Assembly (NCBI RefSeq): GCF_000215705.1
Contig: NC_015677.1
Span: forward strand, 1,934,001-1,998,000
Direction: 5' to 3'
Source: Ramlibacter tataouinensis TTB310
Lineage (GTDB): Bacteria > Pseudomonadota > Gammaproteobacteria > Burkholderiales > Burkholderiaceae_C
Length of the DNA stretch: 64,000 nt
Shown here: positions 1,951 through 44,874 of the stretch, piece by piece
Numbering within the stretch: position 1 is the stretch's first letter
Layout of the letters: each line of letters starts with the position of its first letter
Program-made: the position numbers and the translations under genes
The notes under the pieces: generated by a model
The model's input: the letters and a program-made list of their open reading frames with translations, nothing else
What the model was told of the DNA's origin: nothing
The model's database searches: none

Positions 1951-2814
1951 TCAGCCGCCGTACCGTCTGCCCGCTTCCAGCAGCTCGGGCGTGCCTATCA
2001 CCGCATTGAGGCCCTCGAAATCCAGCATGTGGCCGCGCAGGCCGGCGGTCGAGCCCTCGCGCAGCAGCGTCGCGTAGTAGGTCTGCAGGCCGTGCGCCAC
2101 GGCCCGCGCCGTTCCGCCGGGGAAGATGACGATGCGAAAGCCCAGCGCGCCCAGGTCGTCCACCCCCAGCACCGGCGACTTGCCGCCCTCGACCATGTTG
2201 GCCAGCAACGGCACGCGCCCGGCGAAGCGGGCGCAGGCGGTGCGCATCTGGTCGGTGCTGCGCAAGGCCTCGATGAACAAGGCGTCCACGCCGCAGGCCA
2301 GGTAGCGCTCGGCCCGCTCCAGCGCCGCGTCCACCCCCTCGACCGCGACCGCGTCGGTGCGCGCCAGGATCAGCGTGTCGCTGCTGCGCCGGGCGTCGAG
2401 GGCGGCGCGCAGCTTGCCGCACATCTCGTCCACGGGGATCACGGTCTTGCCGTCCAGATGGCCGCAGCGCTTGGGGAAGCCCTGGTCCTCCAGCTGGATC
2501 ATGGCGGCGCCGGCGCGCTCGAAGTCACGCACCGTGCGCTGGGTGTTGAGCGCGTTGCCGAAGCCGGTGTCGGCGTCCACGATCACGGGCAGCGCGACCC
2601 GGTCGCAGATGGCCCCCAGGGTCTGCGCGACCTCCGTGGCGGTGGTCAGGCCGACGTCGGAGCGCCCCAGCCGGGTGTAGGCGATGGAGGCGCCCGACAG
2701 GTACAGCGCGCGGAAACCGGCTTGTTCGGCCAGCAGCGCGGTCAACGCGTCGTACACGCCGGGAGCGAGCAGGGGGCCGGGCGCGGCCAGCAGGGTCTTG
2801 AGGGAAGGGGTCAT
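1951..2814 (-). CDS. Isocitrate lyase/PEP mutase family C-C lyase (PrpB or dimethylmalate-lyase type)
   Basis: A 287-aa TIM-barrel enzyme of the isocitrate lyase superfamily. It has the Mg-binding DADTGFG stretch (80-86), QLED (107-110) and the signature KRCGHL (115-120), whose cysteine is the catalytic acid/base in true lyases of the family. Relatives cleave 2-methylisocitrate, 2,3-dimethylmalate or oxaloacetate, giving pyruvate plus an acid. It is the last gene of the minus-strand catabolic block and so a plausible final carbon-releasing step. Its aconitase-like and MmgE/PrpD-like operon partners make a hydroxy-di- or tricarboxylate the likely substrate. The exact substrate cannot be read from sequence, so I give no gene symbol. 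Confidence 0.85.
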   Translation of the reverse strand: MTPSLKTLLAAPGPLLAPGVYDALTALLAEQAGFRALYLSGASIAYTRLGRSDVGLTTATEVAQTLGAICDRVALPVIVDADTGFGNALNTQRTVRDFERAGAAMIQLEDQGFPKRCGHLDGKTVIPVDEMCGKLRAALDARRSSDTLILARTDAVAVEGVDAALERAERYLACGVDALFIEALRSTDQMRTACARFAGRVPLLANMVEGGKSPVLGVDDLGALGFRIVIFPGGTARAVAHGLQTYYATLLREGSTAGLRGHMLDFEGLNAVIGTPELLEAGRRYGG

Positions 2815-2823
2815 GGCGGAAAA

Positions 2824-4161
2824 TCAGGTGCGCAGCTGCGCTGAAAGGGTCCGGGCCGCGATCCAGCCGCCGGCCACGGCACTCAGCAAGCCGTTGCCCG
2901 ACAGGTAGCCCCAGACCGCGTTGCCGCTGACGCCACGTGCGGCGCCGCCCGCGGCCAGCAGATTGGGAAACACACTGCCGTCCGGCCGCCGCACGCGGCA
3001 GCCCGCGTCGATGTCCAGACCGCCTTGGGTGTGGAACAGCGCGCCGGTCACCCGGACGGCGTGGAACGGCGGGCCCAGGCGCTCCAGTTCGGGGGCCAGT
3101 CCGCCGGCGGTGCAGCCGATGATGGCGGCCAGGGCCTGGCGGTCGGCGGCCGTGCGCAGCGCGCCGGCGGCTTCGGCCTCGCGAAAGTCGGGGAACTCCC
3201 GGGCCAGGGCGAGTTGCCGGTCGCCGAACACGTTCCAGGCCGTGCCGCCGGGCTGGCGCAGCACCTCGACCGCGGCTTCGGAGTAGCCGCGGGTCTCGTC
3301 GTGGAAGCGGCGGCCGTGCGCATTCAGCTGCACGCCGCCCTGCATCATCACGGCCCAGGTCATCAGCGCCCCCTGGGGCACCACCCAGGAGCCATGGCCC
3401 TGGTAGCCGCCCAGGTCGGCCAGCCCGGCGCCGATGTCCCGGCCCCAGAGAAGAGCGCTGCCGTCATTGCCGGCATGGCCGGCGAAGATCGCGTCGCGCA
3501 TGGACGGCAGCAGTTCGCCCACCAGCGCCGGGTTGCCGCCGAAGCCGTTGCAGCACAGCAGCAGGGCTTCGCAGGCCACCTGTTCGCGACGGCCGTCCGG
3601 GCGCTCAAAACCCACTCCCAAGACCCGGTCGCCGGCGTCCAGCCACAGCTCGGTCACCAGCGAGGAGGTGATCAGGTCGCAGCCCGCCGCCTGCGCGGCC
3701 CGCTGCAGCGCCGCCATCAACGCGGCGCCGGTGCGCTGCGGCAGGGTGTGCATGCGGTGCACGCTGTGTCCCGGATAGAGGAAGCCGTCCAGCACCTCGA
3801 AGGCCAGCCCGTGCGCCGCCAGCGACTCGATCGCGGCGGCGCTGGCCTCGGCGTAGGCGCGCACCAGGTGCGGCGCGGCCGTGCCGTCGGTCTTGGCCAG
3901 GACGTCCTGGGCGAATCGCGCGGGGCTGTCGGCGATGCCCTGGGCCCGCTGCATCCGCGTCCCGGCCGCCGGGATGAAGCCGGAGGACAGGGCGGTCGAA
4001 CCGCCGGGCGCGGCGTCGCGCTCCAGCAGCAGGCAGTCGATGCCCGCGTCGCGCAGCGCCAGGGCCGCGGTCAGGCCGCCGGCGCCGGCGCCGACGATCG
4101 CCACCGGCACCTGCACCGGGGCGGCCAGCCGGTCGGCGCGGACGACGCGGGGCGCAGCCAT
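2824..4161 (-). CDS. FAD-dependent oxidoreductase, fumarate reductase/3-ketosteroid dehydrogenase family
   Basis: A 445-aa flavoprotein with an N-terminal dinucleotide-binding motif GAGAGG (24-29), followed by LLLERDAAPGGSTALSSG, the pattern of the FAD_binding_2 family (fumarate reductase, tricarballylate dehydrogenase TcuA, KstD). A C-terminal FAD contact block (LLAAGGAARGVSGNAVWGYLSGNGLL) is intact. It has no signal peptide or membrane segment, so it is predicted cytosolic. Family members oxidise or reduce a C-C bond next to a carboxylate or carbonyl. It lies 9 nt upstream of the lyase and 4 nt after the amidohydrolase in the same operon. It could make or reduce an unsaturated acid for the hydratase pair. 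The substrate is unknown. Confidence 0.85.
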   Translation of the reverse strand: MAAPRVVRADRLAAPVQVPVAIVGAGAGGLTAALALRDAGIDCLLLERDAAPGGSTALSSGFIPAAGTRMQRAQGIADSPARFAQDVLAKTDGTAAPHLVRAYAEASAAAIESLAAHGLAFEVLDGFLYPGHSVHRMHTLPQRTGAALMAALQRAAQAAGCDLITSSLVTELWLDAGDRVLGVGFERPDGRREQVACEALLLCCNGFGGNPALVGELLPSMRDAIFAGHAGNDGSALLWGRDIGAGLADLGGYQGHGSWVVPQGALMTWAVMMQGGVQLNAHGRRFHDETRGYSEAAVEVLRQPGGTAWNVFGDRQLALAREFPDFREAEAAGALRTAADRQALAAIIGCTAGGLAPELERLGPPFHAVRVTGALFHTQGGLDIDAGCRVRRPDGSVFPNLLAAGGAARGVSGNAVWGYLSGNGLLSAVAGGWIAARTLSAQLRT

Positions 4162-4165
4162 GGCT

Positions 4166-5641
4166 TCAGGCCGTGGGACGGAACAGGTACTGGCCGCGCG
4201 GCTTGCCGATCACGCCCCGGTCATGGGCGTAGATCTGCTCGCCGCGCAGGTAGGTGGCCTCGACCCGCGCCGACAGCTCCAGCCCCTCGAACGGCGTGTA
4301 GCCCTGCGTCGAAGGGGAGTCCTTGGCCTGGATGGTCCAGCTGCGCGCCGGGTCCACCAGCGCGATGTCGGCGTCGAAGCCTTCGGTGATGTCGCCCTTG
4401 CGGTTGAGGCCGAAGCGCTGGGCCGGCGCCCAGCTGGTGACCCGGGCCATGTGGTTGTAGCCCATGCCGCGCCGCGTGCCTTCGCTCACCAGCGCCGGCA
4501 ACAGGTACTCGGTGCCGCCGAAGCCGCTCTTGGCCATCCAGATGTTGCCGAAGTAGCGCCGCGGGACCTTGGTCTCGTGGCGGCAGCAGGCGTGGTCGGA
4601 CACGACCCAGTCAAGCTCTCCCGCCAGCAGCGCGTCCCACAGGAACTCCACGTCTTCGCGCGGGCGGATCGGCGGGTTGACCTTGGCCAGCTCGGCGGCC
4701 TTGGCGTTGATGTCCAGCATCAGGTGGCCGATGGTCACCTCGCGCCGGAAGTCGATGTGCGGGAACACCTCGGCCATCATCAGCGCCGCCTGCACTGCCT
4801 TGCGCGAGCTCAGGTGCAGCAGGTTGATGGTGGGAAGCGCCGTCTCGTGCGCCAGGTAGCTGGCGATGAAGACCGCCAGGCCTTCGGAGTGCTGGGGGCG
4901 CGAGGCGCTGTAGGCAGCCAGGCCCTGCAGCGACTTGTCCTTCTCCACCAGCCGGGTGTAGGCCGTCATGATCTCGGCCGTCTCGCAGTGCAGCGACAGC
5001 GAGATCTGCCGCGCCCGCTCGGGGAACTGTTCGCGAGCCTTCTGGATGCCGCGCATGATGAATTCGAAATGCGCGTAGTCGTAGCGCTCGTCCTCGCCGA
5101 TCATCAGGAACTCGCGCTGGGAATTGCTGGCCCCGTGCAGGCCGTGCGAGCCGTAGAACATGAAGATCTTGAAGCTGGACACGCCGTGCTTGTCGATCAG
5201 CATCGGGATCTCGTCGATGTGCGTGCGGTCCATGGGCGCCAGGTGGAAGCCGTAGTCGACGTGGAAGCGGCCCTCGCTGGTCTTGAGCACCTCGGGATAG
5301 AAATCCCGGTACGGGCCGCCCTTGTTCAGGTAGTACTGCCCGGTGCGGAAGTAGTTCAGGCTGGAGGTCACGCCGCCCATGGCCGCGGCCTTGGATTCGC
5401 TTACCGCGTCCTCGTCCAGCGGCGAGTAGATGCCGCTGTGCATGTGTGCGTCCACCACGCCGGGAAAAGCCAGCTGGCCGCGGCCGTCGTGCACCTGGCG
5501 CGCCAGCGCCGGGTCGATGCCGGGCGCGACCTTGGCGAAACGGCCCTCGGCGACGGCGATGTCGGCCTCGTGCACCACGTTGCCTTGGGGCCGCACCACG
5601 CGGACATTCTTGATCAGCAGGTCGTAGGGAGGTCGGCTCAC
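4166..5641 (-). CDS. Dihydropyrimidinase/hydantoinase-like cyclic amidohydrolase
   Basis: A 491-aa amidohydrolase-superfamily protein with the full binuclear metal set in the expected order: HxH at His66/His68 (DAHMHSG), the presumed carboxylated Lys158 (SSFKIFMFYG), His218 (LHCE), His276 (LLHLSS) and Asp349 (SDHACC). Such enzymes open cyclic amides or imides (hydantoins, dihydropyrimidines, lactams). It overlaps the following small hydratase subunit by 4 nt (ATGA), so it belongs to the same operon. No carbamoylase, beta-ureidopropionase or dihydropyrimidine dehydrogenase gene is nearby, which argues against ordinary pyrimidine or hydantoin breakdown. Allantoinase or dihydroorotase activity is less likely from length and context. 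Confidence 0.87.
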   Translation of the reverse strand: MSRPPYDLLIKNVRVVRPQGNVVHEADIAVAEGRFAKVAPGIDPALARQVHDGRGQLAFPGVVDAHMHSGIYSPLDEDAVSESKAAAMGGVTSSLNYFRTGQYYLNKGGPYRDFYPEVLKTSEGRFHVDYGFHLAPMDRTHIDEIPMLIDKHGVSSFKIFMFYGSHGLHGASNSQREFLMIGEDERYDYAHFEFIMRGIQKAREQFPERARQISLSLHCETAEIMTAYTRLVEKDKSLQGLAAYSASRPQHSEGLAVFIASYLAHETALPTINLLHLSSRKAVQAALMMAEVFPHIDFRREVTIGHLMLDINAKAAELAKVNPPIRPREDVEFLWDALLAGELDWVVSDHACCRHETKVPRRYFGNIWMAKSGFGGTEYLLPALVSEGTRRGMGYNHMARVTSWAPAQRFGLNRKGDITEGFDADIALVDPARSWTIQAKDSPSTQGYTPFEGLELSARVEATYLRGEQIYAHDRGVIGKPRGQYLFRPTA

Positions 5642-6153
5642 GGGGTGCTCCTGGCTGGGTAACGTTGTTTGAGTTGGGGCAGCAGGCCCCCTGCCTCGAC
5701 CATGTCGAGCAGGAAACCGGGGATGGGGTCGGTGGGCAGCGTCCGGCCGGCGCCGGTGACGATGCGGCCGGCACGCGCGTCGATCGCCACCTGCTCGCCC
5801 TCGGCCAGCTCGTGGGCGCGCGCGCAGGTCAGCAGCAGCAGCCCGAGATTGAACGCGTTGCGGAAGAACAGGCCCGAGTACGAGGGGGCGATGACGGCGG
5901 CCACCCCCAGGTGGCGCAGGGCGGCCGCGGCCTGCTCGCGCGAGGAGCCGATGCCGAAGTTGGGACCGGCCGCCAGCACGTCGCCGGGCCGCACCTGCGC
6001 GGCGAATTCCGGCCGTACCGATTCCAGGCAGTGCTGCGCGATCACCTCCACGCCGTGCTGCATCCAGGCGCCGGGCGCCAGCGCGTCGGTGTCGATGTCG
6101 GCCCCCACGCGCCAGACGCGGTGGGAGGCCTTCGCAACCACCGGGCGCTTCAT
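5638..6153 (-). CDS. Aconitase-family small (swivel) subunit, LeuD/DmdB-like
   Basis: A 171-aa swivel-domain protein that pairs with the large subunit encoded immediately upstream, overlapping it by 4 nt. The active-site loop reads FGIGSSREQA (66-75). Isopropylmalate dehydratases usually have GSSREHA, so the His-to-Gln change at 74 is a small departure. DTDALAP (21-27) is the conserved N-terminal substrate loop. Together with the large subunit it should interconvert a hydroxy-acid with its unsaturated form in the cytosol. The location inside a catabolic operon, away from leuA/leuB, argues against leucine biosynthesis. Confidence 0.85.
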   Translation of the reverse strand: MKRPVVAKASHRVWRVGADIDTDALAPGAWMQHGVEVIAQHCLESVRPEFAAQVRPGDVLAAGPNFGIGSSREQAAAALRHLGVAAVIAPSYSGLFFRNAFNLGLLLLTCARAHELAEGEQVAIDARAGRIVTGAGRTLPTDPIPGFLLDMVEAGGLLPQLKQRYPARSTP

Positions 6154-7412
6154 GCCAGCACCTCGCGCGGGTCCGCGATGCGCCCGGCCGCCGCGGAGGC
6201 GGCCACGGTGTAGGCCGAGGCCAGGAAGACGCGGGTGCTGGGCGGGCCCATGCGCCCCTTGAAGTTGCGCGCGGTGCTGGAGATCACGGTCTCGCCCTCG
6301 GCCAGGCTGTCGCCGTAGCCGGCGCAGACGCCGCAGGCGCTGGGCAGCAGCTGGGCGCCGGCGTCCAGCAGCACCTGCAGCGTGCCTTCGCGCTCGGCGG
6401 CGGCGCGGTCGGCCAAGCTGGCCGGCGCCACCATCAGCCGCACGCCCGGCGCCACCCGGCGGCGCCGCAGCACATGGGCGGCGAAGCGCAGATCGTCCAG
6501 CTTGGCGCCGGTGCAGGCGCCGATGTAGGCGGCGTCTATGCGGGTGCCGGCCAGCTCGCCCACGCCATGCCCGTTGGCCGGGCTGTAGGGCGCGGCGACC
6601 TGCGGCGCCAGCGCGCCCGCGTCGAAGACGTGCTCCTCGTCGGCGCTGCCGTCATCGCTGAACCAGGGGGCGATGTCCACCCCGGGCGCGCCGTGCGCCG
6701 CCAGCCAGTCGCGCGTGACCTCGTCGGGCGCGACCAGCCCCACCTGCGCGCCCAGCTCGGCGCTCATGTTGGACAGCGTCATGCGCTCGTTCATGCCCAG
6801 GGCCCGCACCGCCCCGCCCGCGTATTCCACGGCCTGGTAGGCGCCGCCGTTCATGCCGAAGCGGGCGATCAGCGCCAGCATCATGTCCTTGGCCGTGACG
6901 CCGGCCGCCAGCCGGCCTTCCCAGCGCATGCGGATGGTGCGCGGCGCCTGCACCCAGATCTGCCCGGTGGCCACCACGCCCAGCATCTCGGTGGCGCCGA
7001 TGCCGAACATGTAGGCGCCGAAGGCGCCGCCGGTGGGCGAGTGCGAATCGCCGCCCACGCAGAACATGCCGGGCCGGATGTGCCCGTGCTGCGGCACCAC
7101 CACGTGGCAGATGCCCATGGAATCGTAGACATGGGGCAGGGCCTGATCGCGCGCCCAGTCCCGCGCGATGCGCACGATGCGCCGCGCGTCCTCGCTGCGT
7201 TCGGGCACGTAGTGGTCCATGACCAGCACGACCTTGGACTTGTCCCAGATCGCCGCGCCCAACTCCTCGAGCATGGGCTGCAGCCGCCGCGGGCCCGAGG
7301 AGTCGTGGAACATCGCCAGGTCTACGCCGCAGGTGACGATCTCGCCGGGGCGCACGTGCTCGCGCCCGGCTGCCCGGGCGACCAGCTTGCAGGCCAGGGT
7401 GGCGGCAGCCAT
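6150..7412 (-). CDS. Aconitase-family large subunit with [4Fe-4S] ligands, LeuC/DmdA-like
   Basis: A 420-aa subunit; the open frame runs further upstream, but homology starts at MAAATLACKL, 2 nt after the stop of the Bug gene. It carries the three cluster cysteines: Cys300 (GACTGAKLDD) and Cys360/Cys363 (SACGVCAGY). It also has the GDSHSPTGGAFG (121-132) and NMSAELGA blocks. The usual CTN after the first ligand is CTG here, and the usual NMSIEAGA is NMSAELGA, which places it outside standard LeuC. Relatives include homoaconitase, archaeal-type isopropylmalate isomerase and dimethylmaleate hydratase. It is predicted to hydrate or dehydrate an intermediate of the operon's pathway. Confidence 0.86.
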   Translation of the reverse strand: MAAATLACKLVARAAGREHVRPGEIVTCGVDLAMFHDSSGPRRLQPMLEELGAAIWDKSKVVLVMDHYVPERSEDARRIVRIARDWARDQALPHVYDSMGICHVVVPQHGHIRPGMFCVGGDSHSPTGGAFGAYMFGIGATEMLGVVATGQIWVQAPRTIRMRWEGRLAAGVTAKDMMLALIARFGMNGGAYQAVEYAGGAVRALGMNERMTLSNMSAELGAQVGLVAPDEVTRDWLAAHGAPGVDIAPWFSDDGSADEEHVFDAGALAPQVAAPYSPANGHGVGELAGTRIDAAYIGACTGAKLDDLRFAAHVLRRRRVAPGVRLMVAPASLADRAAAEREGTLQVLLDAGAQLLPSACGVCAGYGDSLAEGETVISSTARNFKGRMGPPSTRVFLASAYTVAASAAAGRIADPREVLA

Positions 7413-7414
7413 GC

Positions 7415-8395
7415 TCAGTCCAGTCTCGCCCCGGATGCCTTGACGGCACGGCCCCAGCGCTCGATCTCGGCCTGCAGGAAGCGCCGGAATTCCTCGGGCC
7501 CGCCGGCCACGATGGTCGAGCCGCCCTCGGCCATGCGCTGGCGCACGTCGGGCTGGGTCAAGGCCCAGACCAGGTCGTCGGCCAGCCGGGCGGCCAGCGC
7601 CGGCGGCAATCCCTTGGGCGCGAAAAAGCCGGCCCAGGGCGCCGCCACGTAGCCGGGCAGCCCCTGCTCGGCCACGGTGGGCACCTCGGGCGCGGCGGGC
7701 GTGCGCTCGGCCGTGGTCACGGCCAGCAGCCGCAGCTTGCCGGCCCGCGCCAGGGGCAGGGCCGCCGGCAGGCCGGTCAGCCCGGCGTCGATCTGGCGGC
7801 CGACCAGGTCGTTGAGCATGGACGCGCCGCCGCGGTAGGGGATGTGCGTCATGAAGACGCGCGCGTCCGCCTTGATCAGCTCCATGCCGAGGTGCGACGC
7901 CGTGCCATTGCCGTCCGAGCCGTAGCTCAGCTGCCCTGGCCGGCTGCGCGCCAGGGCGATCAGCTCGCGCAGGTCGCGCGCGGGCACGCCGGGGTGCACC
8001 GCGACTGCGTTGGGGAACAGGGTGGCCTGCGTCAGCGCCTCGAAATCGCGCAAGGGGTGGTAGGGCAGGCTCGGGTAGAGCGACAGGTTGATGGCGTGCG
8101 AGCCGGTGACGCCCAGCACCAGGGTGTGGCCGTCCGGTGCCGCCCGGGCCACCAGGGCCGAACCCACGTTGCCGCCCGCGCCGGGCTTGTTGTCCACCAC
8201 CACCGGCCGGTCCCAGCGCTCGGCCAGCTTCTCGGCCACCAGCCGCGCCGTCAGGTCGGTGGGGCCGCCGGGTCCGAACGGCACCACGAGGGTCACGGTG
8301 CGCGCGGGGAATGCGCCCTGCGCGCCCGCGCCCAGCGGCGGCAGCGCCGCACCCGTCAGGGCGCCCATCCACTTCAGCAGGCTTCGTCTTTGCAT
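7415..8395 (-). CDS. Bug/TctC family periplasmic solute-binding protein
   Basis: About 326 aa. Starts with MQRRSLLKWMGALTGAAL, a Tat-like or Sec signal (twin arginine then hydrophobic core) ending near GAGAQG. The mature protein has the Bug-family pattern (VTLVVPFGPGGPTDLTARLVAEKL, then NKPGAGGNVGS and the PYRGG block). Bug proteins bind carboxylates, amides or aromatic acids and normally deliver to TctAB-type tripartite carriers. No tctA or tctB lies nearby, so this is an orphan receptor, as is common in Burkholderiales. I chose the ATG 1 nt after the preceding stop over an in-frame TTG 12 nt upstream. It may help sense or capture the operon's substrate. Confidence 0.88.
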   Translation of the reverse strand: MQRRSLLKWMGALTGAALPPLGAGAQGAFPARTVTLVVPFGPGGPTDLTARLVAEKLAERWDRPVVVDNKPGAGGNVGSALVARAAPDGHTLVLGVTGSHAINLSLYPSLPYHPLRDFEALTQATLFPNAVAVHPGVPARDLRELIALARSRPGQLSYGSDGNGTASHLGMELIKADARVFMTHIPYRGGASMLNDLVGRQIDAGLTGLPAALPLARAGKLRLLAVTTAERTPAAPEVPTVAEQGLPGYVAAPWAGFFAPKGLPPALAARLADDLVWALTQPDVRQRMAEGGSTIVAGGPEEFRRFLQAEIERWGRAVKASGARLD

Positions 8396-8396
8396 C

Positions 8397-9719
8397 TCAT
8401 GCTCCAAGGTCGGGAAGAAGGGCGGGTGCCTGCGCGTCCTGCGAGCGCAAGCGATGCGCCCAGCGCGCCATCGCCGCGTCGCCGCCGGTGAACTGCCGGA
8501 ACTTGGCCATCACGGCCGCCTCGTCGGGCTGCAAGCCGCCGTCGCCCGCCACCGGGCCCTGCTCGACCTGCCAGGTCCGGTCGCCCCGGCGCACCCGCAG
8601 GTGCGCGCCGCGCGTGGCGCCGGGGAAGGCCTGGGCATCGGCCACAACCTCGACGCGCTGTTCCAGGGCCCGCACCGCCTCGTCCATGAAACGCGGCGCC
8701 CGGAATTCCGCCGGCGAGAGGTCGCCGTGCACCCAGGCCGCGGCCACGCCATGGCTCAGGCTGAACTGCGCCGCCAGCGGCGTACGCGGGGCCCGGTTGG
8801 CGCAGTACTGCAGTGCCTCCGGGTAGACGGTCAGGCGAACCTCGTCCGGCAGCGCCGACCCGGCCTGCGCCCGCAGCCGCAGCGCCGCCTGCGCGCCGTA
8901 ATGCACATGCCGCACGGCCGCGAACGGTTTCCAGTAGCTCTGCAGGATCAGCCACTCGCCCGGCGCGGGCCAGCCGCCGGCCTGGGTCGGATCGAGCGCC
9001 AAAGCCGCGAAATCGTCGATGCACCCCTGCGGCGTCGCCAGCCCGGCCAGCGCCGCCTGGCCGGCCTGCAGGCCGAGCCAGGCGCTGTGGCCCAGGTACA
9101 GGTTGCGCACGTTGGCGCCTTCCCGCACCGGCCGGTACAGGCTGAAGGGCAGCTGCGCGGCGCAGGTCTCCAGCGCCCGGGCGGCGCAGGCCCAGTCGCC
9201 GCCGCGCAGGTGCACCAGGGCGGCGGCCGCGCCGAAGGCGCTCCACACCCCGTCCACGTGCATGCCCGGCCGGATGCGCAGGCGTGCCCCCAGCCGCGCA
9301 GCCACCTCGTAGCCCACGGCGGTGGCCTGCCACAGCGCCTGCCAGGCGGGCCGCAGCGAGGCGACCTGCGTCCACAGCGCGGCCACCACCGGCACGCCCG
9401 GCCGGCCATGGGCCAGCGCCAGGCCCTCGCAGGCCTCGTCCCAGCAGGCTGCCAGGGCGAAGCCGGTGGCCGCCGCCGAGGCTGCCAGGCGGGTCGGGCA
9501 GCCGGGCAGCGGCACGGCCCCGGCGTCGCCCTGGGCCTGCAAGGCGATCCAGCGCGCCGGCTCCTCGGCCTGCAGCCCGGCCCAGGCGCAGGCGGCCGTG
9601 TCCAGCCACAGCCGCCGGGCGCGCTCCACTACCGGCGGCGGCAGCTCGCGCGCGGCCGGCCACAGCCAGTCGCCCAGCGCCTGCAAGGCCTGGGTGACGG
9701 GGAGCGCGGGCCCGCTCAT
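8397..9719 (-). CDS. MmgE/PrpD family protein
   Basis: A 440-aa cytosolic protein of the MmgE/PrpD fold (helical N-terminal domain, then an alpha/beta lid). Family members include 2-methylcitrate dehydratase, cis-aconitate decarboxylase and iminodisuccinate epimerase. Family-like stretches are the N-terminal RARRLWLDTAACAWAGL, the central DGVWSAFGAAAA, the SYWKPFAAVRHVH block (the usual KxYP/CxRHxH region) and EVRLTVYPEAL. It follows livF by 4 nt and precedes the Bug gene by 1 nt. With the aconitase-like pair and the ICL-like lyase it mimics the dehydratase-hydratase-lyase set of the methylcitrate cycle. The actual reaction is not predictable. Confidence 0.82.
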   Translation of the reverse strand: MSGPALPVTQALQALGDWLWPAARELPPPVVERARRLWLDTAACAWAGLQAEEPARWIALQAQGDAGAVPLPGCPTRLAASAAATGFALAACWDEACEGLALAHGRPGVPVVAALWTQVASLRPAWQALWQATAVGYEVAARLGARLRIRPGMHVDGVWSAFGAAAALVHLRGGDWACAARALETCAAQLPFSLYRPVREGANVRNLYLGHSAWLGLQAGQAALAGLATPQGCIDDFAALALDPTQAGGWPAPGEWLILQSYWKPFAAVRHVHYGAQAALRLRAQAGSALPDEVRLTVYPEALQYCANRAPRTPLAAQFSLSHGVAAAWVHGDLSPAEFRAPRFMDEAVRALEQRVEVVADAQAFPGATRGAHLRVRRGDRTWQVEQGPVAGDGGLQPDEAAVMAKFRQFTGGDAAMARWAHRLRSQDAQAPALLPDLGA

Positions 9720-9723
9720 CCCC

Positions 9724-10434
9724 TCACACTCCCAGGTAGGCCTGGCGCAGCCGGTCGCTGGCCAGCAGCTGCGCGCTGCTGCCCGAGAAATCGACGGCGC
9801 CGTTTTCCAGCACGTAGGCGCGCTGGGCGATCTCCAGCGACTGCCCCACGTTCTGTTCCACCAGCAGGATGGCCAGACCCTGCGCGTGCAGGCGGCCGAT
9901 CAGGCCGAACAGCTCCTCCACCAGCAGGGGCGACAGGCCCAGGGACGGTTCGTCCAGGATCAGCAGGCGCGGCTCGCCCATCAGCCCGCGGCCGATCGCC
10001 AGCATCTGCTGCTCGCCGCCGCTCATGGTGCCGGCCAGCTGCCGCGTGCGCTCCTGCAGGCGCGGGAAGATGCCGAACACCCGTTCCAGGTTGTCGGCCC
10101 GGCGCGCTCTCGCCCGGGCGAACGAGCCCAGCTCCAGGTTCTCCAGCACCGACAGGTTGGGAAAGATGCGGCGGCCCTCGGGCACCTGGATCAGTCCGGC
10201 CTCGACGATGGCGCGGCAGGACCGGCCGGTGATGTCCTGGCCGTCGAACAGGATGCGCCCGCCGCGCGCGCGCACCAGGCCGCTGACCGTGTGGTTGAAG
10301 GTGGATTTGCCGGCGCCGTTGCTGCCCAGCAGGGCCACGATCTCGCCCGGCCCGACTTCGATGTCGACGCCGCGCAGCACCTCCACGGCTCCGTAGCCGC
10401 TGCGCAGGCCGCGCACGGACAGCAGCGGCGTCAT
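9724..10434 (-). CDS. livF: Branched-chain amino acid-type ABC transporter ATPase LivF
   Basis: A 236-aa ATPase of a Liv/Hpa-type (HAAT) importer. Walker A is GSNGAGKS, the signature motif is MSGGEQQML and Walker B is LLILDEPSLGL. The start is the ATG that overlaps the livG stop by 4 nt; an open extension upstream is out-of-frame shadow of livG. The segment after Walker A reads STFNHTVSGL rather than the common TTLLRTISGL, a variant of some Liv-type subfamilies. It works with LivG, the two permeases and the binding protein encoded upstream. In a catabolic operon this type often imports aromatic acids, amides or urea-like compounds rather than leucine. Confidence 0.93.
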   Translation of the reverse strand: MTPLLSVRGLRSGYGAVEVLRGVDIEVGPGEIVALLGSNGAGKSTFNHTVSGLVRARGGRILFDGQDITGRSCRAIVEAGLIQVPEGRRIFPNLSVLENLELGSFARARARRADNLERVFGIFPRLQERTRQLAGTMSGGEQQMLAIGRGLMGEPRLLILDEPSLGLSPLLVEELFGLIGRLHAQGLAILLVEQNVGQSLEIAQRAYVLENGAVDFSGSSAQLLASDRLRQAYLGV

Positions 10435-11192
10435 GGGGTGGCCTCCGCCGCCTGGCCGGCCAGCCGCCGCGCCGTGCCGTGGCCGAGGTAGGCCTCGATG
10501 ACGCGTTGGTCCCGCGTCACCGCCCGGGGCGGTCCCTCGGCGATCAGCTGCCCCTGGGCCAGCACCCACACATGCTGGGCCAGGTTCATCACCGCCTGCA
10601 TCACGTGCTCGATCATCAGCACGGTGACGCCGCCGGCCGCGATGTCGCGCACCACCGGCACCATCTCGGCCACTTCCTGCGGGTTCAGTCCGGCCAGCAC
10701 CTCGTCCAGCAGCAGCAGGCGAGGGCGGGTCGCCAGCGCCCGGGCCAGCTCCAGGCGCTTGCGGCCGGCCACGGTCAGGTCGCCCGCCGGCTTGTCCAGT
10801 TGCGGCGCCAGCCCGACGCGCCGGGCCACCAGCGCGGCCTGCTCCAGCGCCTCGGCCCGCGCCGCGCAGTGCAGGTGGGCGCCGACGGCGATGTTCTCGC
10901 GCACGGTCTGGGCCGCGAAGGGCTGCACGATCTGGAAGGTGCGGGTCATGCCGCGCCGCGCGTTCAGGTGCGGCGGCTGGCCCGTGATGTCGCGGCCGTC
11001 GAACACGATGCGGCCCGCGTCCGGCCGCAAAAAGCCCGACATCAGGGCGAACAGCGTGGTCTTGCCGGCGCCATTGGGCCCGATCAGGGCCCCCAGGCTG
11101 CCGGCCGGCAGCTGCAGCGAGACATCCTGCACCGCGGCCAGCCCGCCGAAGGACTTGGACACGTTCGCCAGGCGCAGCAGCGGCTCAGCCAC
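10431..11192 (-). CDS. livG: Branched-chain amino acid-type ABC transporter ATPase LivG
   Basis: A 253-aa ATPase, partner of LivF. Walker A is GPNGAGKT and Walker B is LLLLDEVLAGL. The signature region is LTVAGRKRLELARAL instead of an LSGGQ-like or LPYGQ-like sequence, a pattern seen in a branch of the LivG family. The C-terminal LivG extension (VIEAYLGHG) is present. The gene overlaps the livM end by 8 nt and the livF start by 4 nt, so translation of the transporter genes is coupled. The solute is unknown and is inferred to be the operon's growth substrate. Confidence 0.93.
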   Translation of the reverse strand: MAEPLLRLANVSKSFGGLAAVQDVSLQLPAGSLGALIGPNGAGKTTLFALMSGFLRPDAGRIVFDGRDITGQPPHLNARRGMTRTFQIVQPFAAQTVRENIAVGAHLHCAARAEALEQAALVARRVGLAPQLDKPAGDLTVAGRKRLELARALATRPRLLLLDEVLAGLNPQEVAEMVPVVRDIAAGGVTVLMIEHVMQAVMNLAQHVWVLAQGQLIAEGPPRAVTRDQRVIEAYLGHGTARRLAGQAAEATP

Positions 11193-12162
11193 GCCGGCGT
11201 TCCCACAAGGCCCGCGCCGACTGGCCCAGGCCCATCACGCCGCGCGGCGCGAACATGACGATCAGGATCAGCACGGCGCCGTAGATCACCATGTTGATGC
11301 CCGGCAGCTGGCCGAACAGGTTGCGCGTGAGGTCGGCCAGCAGGTGCAGCGCGAGGGCGCCCAGCACCGGCCCCCACAAGGTGCCCAGCCCGCCCACGAT
11401 GGCCGCGACCAGGGCCTCCACCGAGGTGTGCGGCCCGTAGGCGATGGCCGGGTCGATGTACTGGAACACCTGCACGTAGAAGGCGCCGGCGGCGCCCATG
11501 AAGCCCGCGGACAGCCCGATGGCGCCCAGCTTGACGCGCAGCGGGTCGACGCCGACCGCCCGGGCCGCATCCTCGTTGTCGCGCACCGCCTGCAGCCGCG
11601 CGCCGAAGCGCGAGTGCCGCAGCCAGCAGGTGGCCAGCAGCGCCAGCACCACCAGGCCCAGCATCAGCAGCACGTAGCCGCCCCGGCCGGCGAACTGCAG
11701 GTGGGCCGCGCCGGTGCGCAGCGGCACCATCAGCCCGACGCCGCCGCCGGTGAAGTCGACCGACAGGGCCAGGATGCGGGCCACCTCGGCAAAGGCCAGG
11801 GTCACCAGCGCGAAGTACGAGCCTTTGAGGCCCCAGCGGAACGACAGCGCGCCCACGCCCAGGCCCGCCGCCGCCGCGGCCAGCACGGCCAGCGGCAGGG
11901 CCAGCCAGGGGTTCAGGCCGGCGCCGAGCTGGGCGATCGCCTGCACGTAGGCGCCGGTGCCGAAGAACAGCGCATGGCCGAACGAGAACTGCCCGCCGTA
12001 GCCGCCCAGCAGGTTCCAGGCCTGCGCCATCAGGCAGGCATAGAGCGCCATCATGGTGAAGTTCAGCACCACGCCGGAGCGCGCGAACACGCCCACCAGC
12101 GCCACGGCCGCCGTGAAGGCGGCGATGTGCAGCAGGTCGCGCCGCAGGCTGGGCATCTTCAT
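11185..12162 (-). CDS. livM: Branched-chain amino acid-type ABC transporter permease LivM
   Basis: About 325 aa with 8-10 hydrophobic segments, inner membrane. Typical LivM elements are GYGGQFSFGHALFFGTGAY in the N-terminal half, RAVRDNEDAARAVGVDP-like sequence (here LQAVRDNEDAARAVGVDP) as the ATPase-coupling EAA loop, and GGLGTLWGPVLGA. I start it at MKMPSLRRD, whose ATG overlaps the livH stop by 4 nt; the longer open frame upstream only shadows livH. It forms the permease heterodimer with LivH. Confidence 0.93.
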   Translation of the reverse strand: MKMPSLRRDLLHIAAFTAAVALVGVFARSGVVLNFTMMALYACLMAQAWNLLGGYGGQFSFGHALFFGTGAYVQAIAQLGAGLNPWLALPLAVLAAAAAGLGVGALSFRWGLKGSYFALVTLAFAEVARILALSVDFTGGGVGLMVPLRTGAAHLQFAGRGGYVLLMLGLVVLALLATCWLRHSRFGARLQAVRDNEDAARAVGVDPLRVKLGAIGLSAGFMGAAGAFYVQVFQYIDPAIAYGPHTSVEALVAAIVGGLGTLWGPVLGALALHLLADLTRNLFGQLPGINMVIYGAVLILIVMFAPRGVMGLGQSARALWERRRG

Positions 12163-13031
12163 GCGCGCGCTCCGAACAGGCCCTGCGGGCGCAGCAGCAG
12201 CACGGCGATGAAGATCAGGAAGATCCCGATCTGCCCCAGCGACTCGCCCAGCCACAGCCCGCCCAGCGACTCGACGACGCCGACCAGCAACCCGCCCAGC
12301 AGGGCGCCGGCGAAGCTGCCCATGCCGCCCAGCACCACGATGGTGAAGGCCACCAGCACGAAACCGTTGCCCACCTGCGGGTTGACGTAATAGGCGGGCA
12401 GCAGGAAGCAGGCCGCCGCGCCCAGGCAGGCCAGGCCGATGCCGAAGCTCATGGCATACACATGGTCCACGTCGATGCCCACCAGCCGCGCGCCCTGCTT
12501 CTCCCTGGCCACGGCCCGGATGGCCCGCCCCAGGTCGGTGCGCCTGACCGTCCACAGCAGGACCGCGCAGGCCGCCAGGGCGCCGCCGAACGCCACCAGC
12601 TTGGGCAGGGCCAGCGTGGCCGGGCCGATGGCGACCGTGGCCAGGGTGTAGGGCGTCTCGATGGTGCGCGTGTCCGACTTGAAGGCCAGCAGCGCGAGGT
12701 TCTCCAGCACGATGGCCAGGCCCAGCGTCACCAGCAGGATGTTCTCGTCCTTGCCGTGGCTGGCGCGGTTGATCACCACGCGCTGCAGCCCATAACCCAG
12801 CACGAACATCGCCGCCACCATGGGCGGCAGCGCCAGGTAGGGGTCCAGCCCCAGACGCTGCTTCAGGAAATAGACCCCGTACAACGCCATCATCAGGGCC
12901 GCGCCATGCGCGAAGTTGATGATGTGCAGCACCCCGTAGATCAGGGTCAGGCCGAGCGCCACCAGCGCGTAGACCGCGCCGGTGGTCAGCCCGTTCAGGA
13001 TGGAGGGGAACAGGACCTCGAAGGCGAACAT
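12159..13031 (-). CDS. livH: Branched-chain amino acid-type ABC transporter permease LivH
   Basis: A 290-aa inner-membrane protein with about eight hydrophobic segments. It begins with SILNGLTTGAVYALVALGLTLIYGVLHIINFAHGA, the usual LivH N terminus, and carries AIRAVAREKQGARLVGID as the coupling loop and VVLGGMGSFAGALLGGLLVGVVES later. It lies 16 nt after the binding-protein gene and overlaps livM by 4 nt. It pairs with LivM. Substrate specificity comes from the binding protein and cannot be read here. Confidence 0.93.
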   Translation of the reverse strand: MFAFEVLFPSILNGLTTGAVYALVALGLTLIYGVLHIINFAHGAALMMALYGVYFLKQRLGLDPYLALPPMVAAMFVLGYGLQRVVINRASHGKDENILLVTLGLAIVLENLALLAFKSDTRTIETPYTLATVAIGPATLALPKLVAFGGALAACAVLLWTVRRTDLGRAIRAVAREKQGARLVGIDVDHVYAMSFGIGLACLGAAACFLLPAYYVNPQVGNGFVLVAFTIVVLGGMGSFAGALLGGLLVGVVESLGGLWLGESLGQIGIFLIFIAVLLLRPQGLFGARA

Positions 13032-13047
13032 CGCGGCGGCGTGTGCT

Positions 13048-14262
13048 TCAGGCCTTGAGCGGGAAGACGGGTTCGGCCTCGCGGTATTCGCGCGGAATGA
13101 TGACGCGGATGTCGTCCTTGATCACCTGCGTCATCAGCGGCTGCGCGCCGGTGTTCTGGCCGTTGACGAAGCGGGTCGGGCCGTAGGGCATCAGGTGGTC
13201 GGAAAAGGTGCTGCTCTCCAGCGCGGCCAGGATGGCGGCGCGGTCGGCGGACCTGGCCCGCTCGATCGCATCGGCCAGCAGCTGCATCGCCGTGTAGGTC
13301 ATGAACAGCTCGTAGCTGAAGAACAGGCCCTTGGCCTCGGCCCGCTTCCTCAGCGCTGCGCTGCGCCTGTCCTTGGGGTTGAACCAGTGGTTGCAGTCGA
13401 TGATGCCGTTGGCGGCCTGCGGGAACTCCTTGATGAACTTGTAGCTGGAGGCGGCGCCGCCCAGCACCGAGTAGACGGCCTTGGGCGTCACCTTCTGCTG
13501 CTGCATGGTGCGCACCAGCAGGGCGTACTCGTTGTAGTAGTTGGCCGGGATCACGATGTCGGGGTTGACCGCCTTCATCCGCAGCACGATGTTGTTGAAG
13601 TCGCGCGTCGGGTTGGCGTGCTTGACCACCTCCTTGATCTCGTAGCCATAGCCCGGCAGCTCGCGCGAGAGCAGCTGCGCCGTCCCGGTGCCGAACAGCG
13701 ACTCCTCGTGCACGATCATCACGCTGCGCGCGGGCTTGCCGGCCGAGGTGTTGAGCACCTGCAGGTTGGCCATGGCGATCTCGGCGCACTTGCGGTAGCC
13801 GGGCCCGAAACGGAAGGTGTTCTTCAGGCCGCGCTCGACGATCTGGTCGGCCACGCCGACGTCCACCACGTGGGGCAGGTTGTACTTGGCGGCCGCCTGG
13901 GTGGTGGCCAGGCAGATGGCGGAGGCGAAGGCGCCGACCACCGCGCTCACGCCCGCCTCGTTCATCTTCTCGATCTCGGCCGTGCCGGCCGCCGGCGTGG
14001 ACTGCGCGTCGCCCAGCAGCGCCTCGATGCGCGCGCCGCCCAGGGATTTGATGCCGCCGGCCTGGTTGATGTCCTCGATGGCCATCAGCGCGCCCTCGCG
14101 GCATTGCTGGCCGGAGTAGGCCAGCGCGCCCGTCACGGGATGCAGCACCCCCACCTTGACGGTGCGCGGCTGCGCGCCGCTCACCAGCGGCAGGGCCAGT
14201 GCGGAGGCTGCGGCGCCAGCCTGGACGATGAACCGGCGGCGATTGTTGTGCGGTGTGCTCAC
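13048..14262 (-). CDS. Liv-type ABC transporter periplasmic substrate-binding protein
   Basis: A 404-aa binding protein of the Peripla_BP_6 family. The N terminus MSTPHNNRRRFIVQAGAAAS has a Tat-like RRRFI motif and a hydrophobic stretch, with cleavage likely after SGAQ. The mature protein starts VKVGVLHPVTGALAYSG, the characteristic first strand, with LINQAGGIKSLGG-type sequence following (here DINQAGGIKSLGGARIE). This subgroup (with NYYNEYALLVRTMQQQ) is often annotated for amides, urea or aromatic acids. It sits 19 nt after gntR and leads the transporter genes, where high expression would be expected. Confidence 0.9.
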   Translation of the reverse strand: MSTPHNNRRRFIVQAGAAASALALPLVSGAQPRTVKVGVLHPVTGALAYSGQQCREGALMAIEDINQAGGIKSLGGARIEALLGDAQSTPAAGTAEIEKMNEAGVSAVVGAFASAICLATTQAAAKYNLPHVVDVGVADQIVERGLKNTFRFGPGYRKCAEIAMANLQVLNTSAGKPARSVMIVHEESLFGTGTAQLLSRELPGYGYEIKEVVKHANPTRDFNNIVLRMKAVNPDIVIPANYYNEYALLVRTMQQQKVTPKAVYSVLGGAASSYKFIKEFPQAANGIIDCNHWFNPKDRRSAALRKRAEAKGLFFSYELFMTYTAMQLLADAIERARSADRAAILAALESSTFSDHLMPYGPTRFVNGQNTGAQPLMTQVIKDDIRVIIPREYREAEPVFPLKA

Positions 14263-14281
14263 GGTGTGCTCCTGTGGGTCG

Positions 14282-15085
14282 TCAGTGGAACTGGGCAGCG
14301 AAGTCGCGGCTGACCCAGACCTTGGCGTCTATCTCGCCGACGCGGGACAGCTGCATCTGGTACTCGTAGCGGTCGGGCCGGTACAGGCCGTGCAGCCATT
14401 GCACTGGCCGGCCGTCCTCGTCATGGATCAGCCGGCGCACCGCCAGCAGGGCGGAGCCCACGGCCAGGCCCAGCTGCGCGGCCACCTGCGCGTCGGCCAG
14501 CCGGGCCGAAAGGGTCTGGTGCGCGCCGCCGACGCGCACGCCAGCCTCCTCCAGCAGCACCAGGATGGGCTTCCTCGCGAGCTCGCGCTTGCCGAAGCCC
14601 TGCGCCAGCGCCGCCGGCACCCAGGTGGTGATGTGGGACAGCGGACCTTCGCGCGTGGAACGCACGCGCACCGCCTTCTGCACCGGCTCGCCCGGCTGCA
14701 GGCGCAGCGCCTGCGCCACCTCCGTGGCGGCGGCCACCTCGCCGACCTCCAGCACGCGCACGGTGGTGTTCAGGCTGGTGCTGACCAGGTTCTCGAGCAG
14801 GCCGGTCAGGCGCGTGGTCTTGGCACCCGCGGCGCCGGCGCGCGCGGCGGGCGAGGCGCCATGAGCCGCCGACAGCGCACGGGTGCCGCGACCACGCTCG
14901 CGGGCGATCAGGCCCTCGCCGGCCAGCTCCTGCAGGGCGCGCCGCACGGTCACGCGCGCCACGCCGAACTGCCGCATCAGCTCCAGCTCGCCGGGCAGTC
15001 CCTGCGCGAACCGTCCCTCCTGCAGCTGTTCGCGCAACACCAGGTAGATCTGGTGGTACTTGGGCAGGGGCAGGGCGGCCGTCAT
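14282..15085 (-). CDS. GntR family (HutC/UTRA) transcriptional regulator
   Basis: A 267-aa repressor-type regulator. The N-terminal winged helix (residues ~5-75: PKYHQIYLVLREQL, LPGELELMRQFGVARVTVRRAL, GEGLIARERGRGTRA) is followed by a UTRA ligand-binding domain ending QMQLSRVGEIDAKVW. It is the first gene of the minus-strand catabolic block and probably binds the repeats between itself and dnaQ, controlling itself and the operon. The UTRA domain should bind a substrate or intermediate as inducer. I use the ATG giving MTAALPLPKYHQ; an upstream in-frame ATG would place the operator repeats inside the coding region. Confidence 0.88.
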   Translation of the reverse strand: MTAALPLPKYHQIYLVLREQLQEGRFAQGLPGELELMRQFGVARVTVRRALQELAGEGLIARERGRGTRALSAAHGASPAARAGAAGAKTTRLTGLLENLVSTSLNTTVRVLEVGEVAAATEVAQALRLQPGEPVQKAVRVRSTREGPLSHITTWVPAALAQGFGKRELARKPILVLLEEAGVRVGGAHQTLSARLADAQVAAQLGLAVGSALLAVRRLIHDEDGRPVQWLHGLYRPDRYEYQMQLSRVGEIDAKVWVSRDFAAQFH

Positions 15086-15108: not shown

Positions 15109-15153
15109 TTGTCCTGTCAATGGGACAATTCATCGGGACAAACCATGGGACAA
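15109..15153 (-). promoter_or_regulatory. Candidate GntR operator cluster
   Basis: Three direct copies of GGGACAA (15122-15128, 15135-15141, 15147-15153) plus one inverted copy TTGTCC (15109-15114) lie in the 104-nt gap between divergent gntR and dnaQ. Copies are spaced 12-13 nt, close to one helical turn. The inverted pair TTGTCC-N8-GGACAA forms a dyad. Position and dyad symmetry suggest binding by the adjacent GntR regulator. This is inferred, not shown. Confidence 0.5.
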
Positions 15154-15175: not shown

Positions 15176-15181
15176 CATAAT
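15176..15181 (+). promoter_or_regulatory. Possible -10 element (CATAAT) for dnaQ
   Basis: CATAAT differs from TATAAT at one base and ends 8 nt before the dnaQ ATG, so a transcript from it would have almost no leader. No convincing -35 hexamer is visible at 17 nt upstream. Weak call from sequence alone. Confidence 0.25.
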
Positions 15182-18151: not shown

Positions 18152-19003
18152 ATGACTGAACAAGTCCGTTTCCTCGCGGGCACGACGGCGCTGGTGCTCG
18201 ATTCGCCGCACAGCGGCACCGCCTATCCCGCCGATTTCCGCCATGCCTGCGCGCTGTCCGAGCTGCGGCGCGCCGAAGACACGCACGTGGACAAGCTCTA
18301 CGATTTCGCGCCGGCGCTGGGCGTAGCCTGGATCGAGGCGCTGTTCCCGCGCAGTTATCTCGACGCCAACCGCCATCCGGCGGAGATCGACCAGAGCCTG
18401 CTCGATGCGCCCTGGCCCGGCGAGATCGCGACCGACCCCGGGCTGCTCGCCAAGGTGCGCCTGGGCAAGGGCCTGGTGTGGCGGTGCACCGACGACGGCC
18501 TGCCGATCTACGACCGCAAGCTCCCGGTGGGCGAGGTGCAGGCCCGCATCGAGCACTGCTGGAACCCCTACCACGCATCGGTGGCGCAAGCCATAGACCA
18601 GGCCCATGCGAAGCACGGCTTCAGCATCCACATCAACTGCCATTCCATGCCGGCGATCGCCGGCAGCCACGCCACCGACTTCCCCGGCGCCGCCCATGCC
18701 GACTTCGTGGTGGGCGACCGCGACGGCAGCACCGCCGCGCCCGCGCTGTCGCAGCGGGTGTGCGACCACCTGCGCGGCCTGGGCTACAGCGTGGACTACA
18801 ACCATCCCTACAAGGGCGTGGAGCTGGTGCGGCGCCATGGCCAGCCGGCGCGGCACCGCCACAGCATCCAGCTGGAGGTCAACCGCAAGCTCTACATGGA
18901 TGAGCAAACCCTGCAGCCGCACGGCGGCTTCGGCCGGCTGCGGGACGACCTGCAGTCGCTGGTCCGCCGCTTGCTCGAGACCGATCCGCGCAAGCTCGCC
19001 TGA
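18152..19003 (+). CDS. N-formylglutamate amidohydrolase family protein
   Basis: A 283-aa zinc amidohydrolase of the HutG/FGase family. Conserved stretches include VLDSPHSGTAYP near the N terminus, EDTHVDKLYDFAP, FPRSYLDANRHPAEID, and INCHSMPAI plus HPYKGVELVRRHG toward the C terminus, which carry the metal and substrate histidines. It hydrolyses N-formylglutamate to formate and glutamate in histidine breakdown in known members. No hut genes are nearby, so another N-formyl amino acid is possible. Its TGA overlaps the ATG of the next gene, so it is co-translated with an L-2-hydroxyglutarate oxidase-like enzyme. Confidence 0.88.
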   Translation: MTEQVRFLAGTTALVLDSPHSGTAYPADFRHACALSELRRAEDTHVDKLYDFAPALGVAWIEALFPRSYLDANRHPAEIDQSLLDAPWPGEIATDPGLLAKVRLGKGLVWRCTDDGLPIYDRKLPVGEVQARIEHCWNPYHASVAQAIDQAHAKHGFSIHINCHSMPAIAGSHATDFPGAAHADFVVGDRDGSTAAPALSQRVCDHLRGLGYSVDYNHPYKGVELVRRHGQPARHRHSIQLEVNRKLYMDEQTLQPHGGFGRLRDDLQSLVRRLLETDPRKLA

Positions 19004-44769: not shown

Positions 44770-44874
44770 CAAGGCCCTTCCAGCCACAGTCGCATCCGCC
44801 ATCCGGTCCAGCCGTGTCGCGGAAGGTTTCTTCAACCAGCTCATGCTCCCTGCAGGGGGGCGGAAAGTAGCGAA

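Follow-up and report, generated by a model that had tools for sequence, protein, structure and literature searches.

The 64,000-nucleotide window analyzed here (positions 1934001-1998000 of contig NC_015677.1, from the 4.07-Mb single-contig genome of Ramlibacter tataouinensis TTB310) contains thirteen intact minus-strand open reading frames (ORFs), running from 15085 down to 1951, that may encode a self-contained, substrate-induced pathway for the catabolism of an imported cyclic imide of a branched C4 diacid. We hold this reading tentatively, at slightly under an even chance; within it, the substrate is most likely an alkyl- or carboxyalkyl-substituted succinimide or maleimide, with a lactam as the alternative. 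The original prediction for this DNA had proposed a single unit containing an importer, an amidohydrolase, a LeuCD-type hydratase and a lyase, and the conservation of these genes in 62 close loci supports that proposal. Its broader idea, in which a ring is opened to a branched di- or tricarboxylate that is then converted to pyruvate plus an acid, is still the best general reading; the interpretation as a whole is partly supported.

Gene Content and Conservation of the Operon

The order, strand and family assignments of the thirteen genes are as first predicted. With refined starts, for which the LeuC ATG was set at 7412, three bases upstream of an alternative start, the spacings are 19, 16, -4, -8, -4, +4, +1, +2, -4, -4, +4 and +9 nucleotides (nt). 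Four of the 12 junctions are 4-nt overlaps, and the range of -8 to +19 nt confirms the tight packing first described. The features, in window coordinates, are as follows.

15109..15128, no strand: candidate operator TTGTCC-N8-GGACAA, upstream of the GntR/UTRA regulator gene
14282..15085, minus strand: GntR/UTRA regulator, 267 aa (UTRA 5.9e-33, GntR 3.7e-15)
13048..14262, minus strand: Liv-type substrate-binding protein, 404 aa (Peripla_BP_6 3.1e-46)
12159..13031, minus strand: LivH permease (BPD_transp_2 2.9e-35)
11185..12162, minus strand: LivM permease (BPD_transp_2 4.6e-40)
10431..11192, minus strand: LivG ATPase (ABC_tran and BCA_ABC_TP_C domains)
9724..10434, minus strand: LivF ATPase (ABC_tran 5e-29)
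8397..9719, minus strand: MmgE/PrpD-family protein, a facultative member (MmgE_PrpD domains)
7415..8395, minus strand: Bug/TctC-type binding protein, a variable member (TctC 1.1e-68)
6150..7412, minus strand: LeuC-like large subunit, predicted [4Fe-4S] hydratase (Aconitase 1.7e-87)
5638..6153, minus strand: LeuD/DmdB-like small subunit (TIGR02087, 157.3 bits)
4166..5641, minus strand: cyclic amidohydrolase, 491 aa, predicted hydantoinase-type active site (conserved ligands, Foldseek matches)
2824..4161, minus strand: FAD_binding_2 dehydrogenase (domain match 2.8e-48)
1951..2814, minus strand: C-C lyase of the isocitrate lyase (ICL)/PrpB superfamily (PEP_mutase 2.4e-45)

Of 235 amidohydrolase relatives on genome contigs, the best 80 were retained, and we divide these into 62 close loci (amidohydrolase at least 77% identical) and 18 distant loci (below 77%). 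Partner genes were counted by tblastn on the same strand within 12 kb, at loci with enough flank only. Among the close loci, LeuC accompanies the amidohydrolase in 50 of 52 and LeuD in 55 of 58, and the other partners are nearly as constant: LivF (43/47), the Liv-type binding protein (34/37), the GntR/UTRA regulator (30/35), the FAD_binding_2 gene (49/55) and the PrpB-type lyase (40/46). These counts make the operon, as a unit, more than a product of chance. The close loci in which a partner was not found include L041 and L051 (LeuC and LeuD), L028 and L036 (the FAD gene) and L046, L058 and L066 (FAD and PrpB). As judged from these comparisons, the inherited unit consists of the regulator, the Liv importer, LeuC-LeuD, the amidohydrolase, the FAD enzyme and the PrpB-type lyase. 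The predicted membership of all thirteen genes thus holds for this conserved core; PrpD, present in 3 of the 62 close loci, and the variable Bug protein do not stand as constant members.

The gene set recurs within Burkholderiales, patchily. At the family level the amidohydrolase occurs in 12 of 299 genomes (E 1e-120), at the order level in 7 of 399 (E 1e-100) and at the phylum level in 2 of 398 (E 1e-120), with the window's own genome counted and with genomes shared among the three draws; the trait is patchy in occurrence because so few genomes carry it at each rank. The window amidohydrolase shares 90% identity with a protein labeled Ramlibacter sp. (P0009) and 89% with that of Caenimonas sedimenti (L010). 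The order-level draw also yielded L099 and L101, whose amidohydrolases are 63-65% identical and which keep the binding protein, LivHMGF, LeuCD, the amidohydrolase and the FAD gene; neither the regulator nor PrpD was found in either, and PrpB is present in L099 and was not found in L101. Phage records gave no match at 1e-40. Two relatives show variant arrangements. In L051, which is rearranged, the FAD and PrpB genes precede those of the importer, LivF is followed by the amidohydrolase, and LeuCD was not found; in L023, a thiolase, a CoA-transferase and one small gene are inserted inside the operon between LeuD and Bug (3239-6213).

A Conserved Operator Precedes the Regulator Gene

The regulator scores 121.7 bits against the PhnF profile, under its cut-off of 156.8. 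We searched 33 regions preceding the regulator gene, each spanning 220 bases before the gene and 40 bases into it, and found the palindrome TGTCC-N8-GGACA in 19 of them, the window counted, against a best of 3 in 20 shuffles; the shuffles discard the relatedness of the regions, so part of this recurrence reflects common ancestry. The six listed palindromes sit at -43 or -44, and a copy with a longer half-site in L060 sits at -54. The longer form, TTGTCC-N8-GGACAA, has a single exact copy in the 4.07-Mb genome, at 15109-15128. Because this conserved palindrome lies there, we place the regulator start at 15085 and not at the longer ORF start at 15178. A wider regulon search of the whole genome gave eight one-mismatch sites, compared with six for the reversed control. 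The conserved, genome-unique operator predicted here supports the view that the operon is one self-regulated unit. A simple scan found no sigma-70-like promoter for the operon, and the two terminator-like sites, one of them just beyond the last gene (1945-1932), represent no enrichment over the shuffle mean of 3.0; transcription as a single unit is therefore something we infer.

The Amidohydrolase Has a Hydantoinase-Type Active Site

The predicted metal ligands H66, H68, K158, H218, H276 and D349, together with Y163, are invariant in an alignment of 29 sequences whose members are at least 63% identical to the window protein. They comprise the four His, the Lys to be carboxylated and the Asp expected of the binuclear metal site of a hydantoinase-type amidohydrolase. 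The Tyr five residues past the metal Lys (K158-x4-Y163) is placed as in the hydantoinases 1k1d and 1gkp, and this Lys-x4-Tyr arrangement is missing from the aligned allantoinases 3e74, 8hfd and 3hm7. Among curated profiles, the best score is to allantoinase (213 bits, under the 357.85 cut-off), and the D-hydantoinase score is 178.1 bits, under the 393.25 cut-off. A structural model of the protein has a mean predicted local distance difference test (pLDDT) score of 76.9, the five models ranging from 55.2 to 76.9; with it, Foldseek returned an allantoinase first and a D-hydantoinase sixth. Titles in the reference list of PMC9863593 report the hydrolysis of cyclic imides by hydantoinase and imidase. 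The imidase/D-hydantoinase metabolism of cyclic imides, so far as those titles describe it, resembles the operon in enzyme family and in the proposed ring opening; the operon differs in coupling that opening to the hydration of a branched diacid and the cleavage of one of its C-C bonds.

The LeuCD, Lyase, and FAD Enzymes

LeuC retains its cluster cysteines C300, C360 and C363, numbered from the ATG at 7412 (299, 359 and 362 from the later start). It scores over the PRK00402 cut-off and over that of the subfamily-level homoaconitate hydratase family TIGR01343 (hacA_fam; 392.3 bits, cut-off 385.7), and under the equivalog cut-offs for LEU2 (335.5 versus 610.65) and HacA_Meth (341.5 versus 550). 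LeuD passes TIGR02087 for LeuD/DmdB small subunits, whose cut-off is 108.95 bits. We considered the LeuD recognition-loop residue as a substrate marker. It is Lys in 41, Gln in 21 and Arg in 1 of 63 sequences read, with one unread, and the structures have Arg in homoaconitase 2pkp, Val in isopropylmalate isomerase 3vba and Lys in LeuD 3h5e; the marker was dropped because Lys, the commonest residue, also occurs in the last of these.

The lyase carries the ICL-superfamily catalytic motif KRCGH at 115-119, at least 97% conserved in 50 sequences. The nearest solved relatives of the flavin adenine dinucleotide (FAD) enzyme are fumarate reductases, in which one Arg is catalytic and another binds the substrate carboxylate. 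These two Arg align with Y293 and Y419 of the FAD enzyme, both at least 97% conserved in 51 sequences, and both fumarate reductase histidines are kept. Because both dicarboxylate-handling Arg are replaced, the substrate of the FAD enzyme is probably neutral.

The same genome holds six other aconitase-family places. Two more pairs of PrpB-like and LeuC-like genes also occur in it (L092, 7757-10022; L093, 8080-10386), one of them by a GntR regulator and Bug genes. Given these two further pairs, this organism seems to use the hydratase-lyase combination repeatedly as a module, which in the operon is tied to ring opening.

Proposed Pathway

From the gene content, the conservation of the unit, the active-site residues and the operator, all of which were observed, we infer a substrate and a series of reactions. 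Binding of the substrate or a product would cause the UTRA regulator to leave its single operator. The ring would be taken up by the Liv-type importer, with the Bug protein assisting in this strain, and would be desaturated by the FAD enzyme while still neutral, as the loss of both dicarboxylate-handling Arg suggests. The hydantoinase-type amidohydrolase would then open the ring to a substituted maleamate, and the second nitrogen would be lost through spontaneous anhydride-assisted hydrolysis or through a housekeeping amidase. LeuCD would hydrate the resulting substituted maleate to a substituted malate, which the PrpB-type lyase would cleave to a 2-oxo acid, such as pyruvate, and a carboxylic acid.

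Several observations weigh against this scheme. Its weak point is the second amide, as the thirteen genes include no dedicated half-amidase, and amidase, cyclase and isochorismatase probes match few close loci (an amidase in L084 and an isochorismatase-like gene in L038, on the opposite strand; CN_hydrolase was not among the probes used on these loci). Dialkylmaleamates self-hydrolyze via the anhydride, which would explain the absence of a half-amidase. The amidohydrolase model has pLDDT below 50 at 161-182, 184-189, 219-235, 237-252, 321-325 and 352-374, and because these include active-site stretches we make no argument from the pocket. The LeuD loop residue does not separate alkyl from carboxyalkyl substrates, and neither PrpD nor Bug holds a firm role in the imide scheme. 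LeuCD was not found nearby in 8 of the 18 distant loci (L067, L069, L076, L078, L081, L085, L088 and L089), so coupling of the amidohydrolase to a LeuCD route is not obligatory. The matches to itaconate-degradation genes described in the next section are far under their cut-offs (RipC, 154.6 of 375 bits; RipB, 148.5 of 340 bits).

Distant Relatives Suggest Substituted Steps

The close form of the importer was not found in the 18 distant loci (LivF 0/14, binding protein 0/10); L067 and L073 have a Liv cassette on the other strand, 32-43% identical. Ten of the 18 (L071, L072, L073, L074, L077, L079, L080, L083, L086 and L087) have LeuC/LeuD-type genes close to the amidohydrolase. With a chance proximity of ∼3%, a simple binomial gives P ∼2e-11, where the background is the six other aconitase-family places of one genome and shared ancestry is ignored. 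The genes around the ring-opening enzyme vary among the more distant relatives. Pseudoxanthomonas (L086) has a small form with GntR (36%), LeuC, LeuD, the amidohydrolase and PrpB. L087 combines the amidohydrolase with HMGL-like, LeuC, LeuD and family III CoA-transferase genes, PrpB not being found; a CoA-transferase also occurs in L077 and L079, where LeuCD is of a different subtype. On a Rhodococcus gordoniae plasmid (L090), the amidohydrolase is immediately preceded by a 37% FAD homologue and followed by a CoA-transferase, and PrpB was not found; divergent genes encode a RipC/CitE-like lyase, a cyclase and MmgE/PrpD, and a HyuAB pair, an amidase and a RipB-like MaoC hydratase occur farther off. 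In L100, amidase, LeuCD and CN_hydrolase genes share a contig (L113) with CitE-, MaoC-, CoA-transferase- and HMGL-type genes at least 10 kb off, and PrpB was not found. On a Streptomyces plasmid (L091), a homologue lies near ABC-transporter-like genes, and LeuCD was not found.

Taken together, the chemistry that follows ring opening looks like a recurring one, in which a branched unsaturated diacid would be hydrated and then cleaved, either free of coenzyme A (CoA), as with PrpB, or via a CoA ester. Itaconate degradation (RipABC/Ict-Ich-Ccl) similarly converts a branched C5 diacid to pyruvate and a C2 unit. The likeness lies in the RipB- and RipC-like genes, under cut-off, near homologues of the operon amidohydrolase; the operon in the window differs in having LeuCD and a CoA-independent lyase.

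Further amide hydrolases occur near the amidohydrolase in at least 9 of 86 loci: an amidase in L084, L090 and L100; a CN_hydrolase in both loci examined for it (L088 and L100); and a cyclase in L072, L073, L074, L078, L090 and L102. The amidase and cyclase probes covered all 86 loci (82 + 4). Pyridoxal phosphate enzymes adjoin the amidohydrolase in some soil metagenome-assembled genomes; we set them aside as housekeeping because the one tested (L073) passes the cysteine synthase cut-off.

Alternative Readings of the Operon

We regard as unlikely, yet deserving of some weight, a route that starts from another cyclic amide, such as a lactam or hydropyridone. An enamidase-like reaction would open this ring, and the resulting chain would be turned into a methylated diacid along a path unlike that of the imide scheme. 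The amidohydrolase superfamily also contains enamidase, and nicotinate fermentation in Eubacterium barkeri combines amidohydrolase ring opening, a LeuCD-type dimethylmaleate hydratase and an ICL-family dimethylmalate lyase, three families that the operon shares. The operon differs in its built-in FAD dehydrogenase and importer and in an amidohydrolase that is hydantoinase/allantoinase-like, and its thirteen genes lack a mutase and a molybdenum hydroxylase. Enamidase products require reduction and a mutase, and the nearest solved relatives of the amidohydrolase are an allantoinase and hydantoinases. The nicotinate parallel drawn in the original prediction therefore survives at the hydratase-lyase end and not in the rest. 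The operon does bear out the accompanying statement that neither a mutase nor a ring oxygenase is present. In three relatives, however, an FAD_binding_3 monooxygenase is encoded on the strand opposite the amidohydrolase and at a distance of one gene from it (L028, 4701-5900; L036, 7793-9070; L041, 1-1218), which favors the enamidase-type route and suggests that some relatives may start from a ring needing hydroxylation. The HyuA on the Rhodococcus plasmid, caprolactamase-like at 579.9 bits versus a cut-off of 1000, also points this way. L028 and L036, where the FAD_binding_2 gene was not found, have an arylmalonate-decarboxylase/Asp-Glu-racemase-like gene as well.

It is improbable that the amidohydrolase is instead a lactonase acting on an ester ring, in which case the substrate would have no nitrogen. 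Lactonases do occur in the superfamily, but the hydantoinase-type Lys-x4-Tyr is present and an amidase, CN_hydrolase or cyclase lies nearby in the at least nine loci listed above.

Somewhat less probable still is the opening of citrazinate or another aconitate imide, with LeuCD as a private aconitase and the lyase as an isocitrate lyase analogue. This would call for the same kinds of enzymes, and LeuC does pass hacA_fam. Since aconitate feeds directly into the tricarboxylic acid cycle, however, a dedicated LeuCD and lyase would be superfluous; six other aconitase-family places exist in the genome, and a pyridine-ring hydroxylase is absent among the thirteen genes.

The original prediction also held that PrpD, an aconitase and a PrpB-type lyase copy the methylcitrate cycle, so that a tricarboxylate would be dehydrated, hydrated and cleaved in turn. 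The operon does contain all three families, and PrpD has no second match in this genome. The methylcitrate cycle (PrpB, PrpC, PrpD and AcnD) shares the PrpD and PrpB families with the operon, whose thirteen genes differ in lacking a citrate-synthase-like gene. PrpD is an optional addition: its three occurrences in close loci (L014, L032 and L034; some of the 62 are too short to judge) place PrpD and Bug between LeuC and LeuD, unlike their position in the window, and among the 45 close loci with 5 kb upstream it is present in one and absent from the other 44. The only solved relative found for it is IDS-epimerase, at 5e-7, and the nearest solved structures to the Bug protein are Bug27 and a terephthalate-binding protein. 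The lyase scores 286.9 bits against the methylisocitrate lyase equivalog, under its cut-off of 354.4. Because PrpD is facultative, we rejected the analogy and consider a methylcitrate-like series very improbable. Ordinary ureide use by an allantoinase, hydantoinase or dihydropyrimidinase, to which the best curated matches of the amidohydrolase point, is the least credible reading, as both scores are below their cut-offs, the thirteen genes lack a carbamoylase or allantoate enzyme, and LeuCD and a C-C lyase would be useless.

Other Features of the Window

Downstream of the operon are convergent HSP70-family and ferredoxin-family genes, and upstream is a divergent exonuclease gene. An N-formylglutamate amidohydrolase family gene (3.1e-70) lies outside the operon at 18152-19003, by a LysR regulator. 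At gathering scores, the window has a single match to a cis-regulatory Rfam family, a SucA RNA motif on the plus strand (RF01070, 70.2 bits, 44790-44872).

Tetrapyrrole-Derived Imides as Candidate Substrates

Within the proposed cyclic imide pathway, one specific possibility, which we consider a long shot, is that the operon serves imides formed by oxidation of chlorophyll or heme, such as hematinic acid, methyl-ethyl-maleimide and the corresponding saturated rings. A saturated imide would first be desaturated by the FAD enzyme, after which the amidohydrolase would open the maleimide and LeuCD would hydrate the dialkylmaleate; the lyase would then yield pyruvate and glutarate, or 2-oxoglutarate and propionate, from the hematinic acid product, and pyruvate and butyrate from the ethyl compound. 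Hematinic acid and maleimides fit the imide scheme and give central metabolites. PMC7318184 reports hematinic acid and maleimides from senescent leaves and lake sediment, puts chlorophyll turnover on a scale of 10^12 kg yearly and, for the leaf samples of that study itself, describes hematinic acid as found and maleimides as undetected.

No operon gene is specific to tetrapyrroles. One Burkholderiales locus (L100) has a CpeT/CpcT-family protein (3.1e-27, 6861-8105) between LeuD and the amidohydrolase. CpeT matches occur in 5 of 398 Burkholderiales genomes, and the amidohydrolase and LeuCD were not found in the long CpeT neighborhoods of two other genomes (L109 and L110, which have amidase-like matches) or beside the second CpeT of the L100 genome (L114); L111 is a contig of 3.7 kb, and the one remaining match (G327) is weak. 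Because neither partner was found in these other neighborhoods, the CpeT neighbor is at most a hint of a link to bilins. A GUN4 gene by the homologue in the cyanobacterium Westiellopsis (L089, 12519-13553) is a TIR-domain fusion and was not used as evidence.

Among the matches listed from the open-licence literature, we found no description of bacterial hematinic acid catabolism or of this gene set; the parts belong to known families, and their combination was not found there. Enzymes that are now named piecemeal as allantoinase, isopropylmalate dehydratase and methylisocitrate lyase become parts of one conserved, regulated pathway whose proposed chemistry can be tested. Should the substrate be an imide, the operon would provide a dedicated route from cyclic imides to central metabolism. 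If the tetrapyrrole reading is true, it would supply a missing bacterial end of tetrapyrrole turnover and bear on what becomes of degraded pigments in soil and lake sediment.

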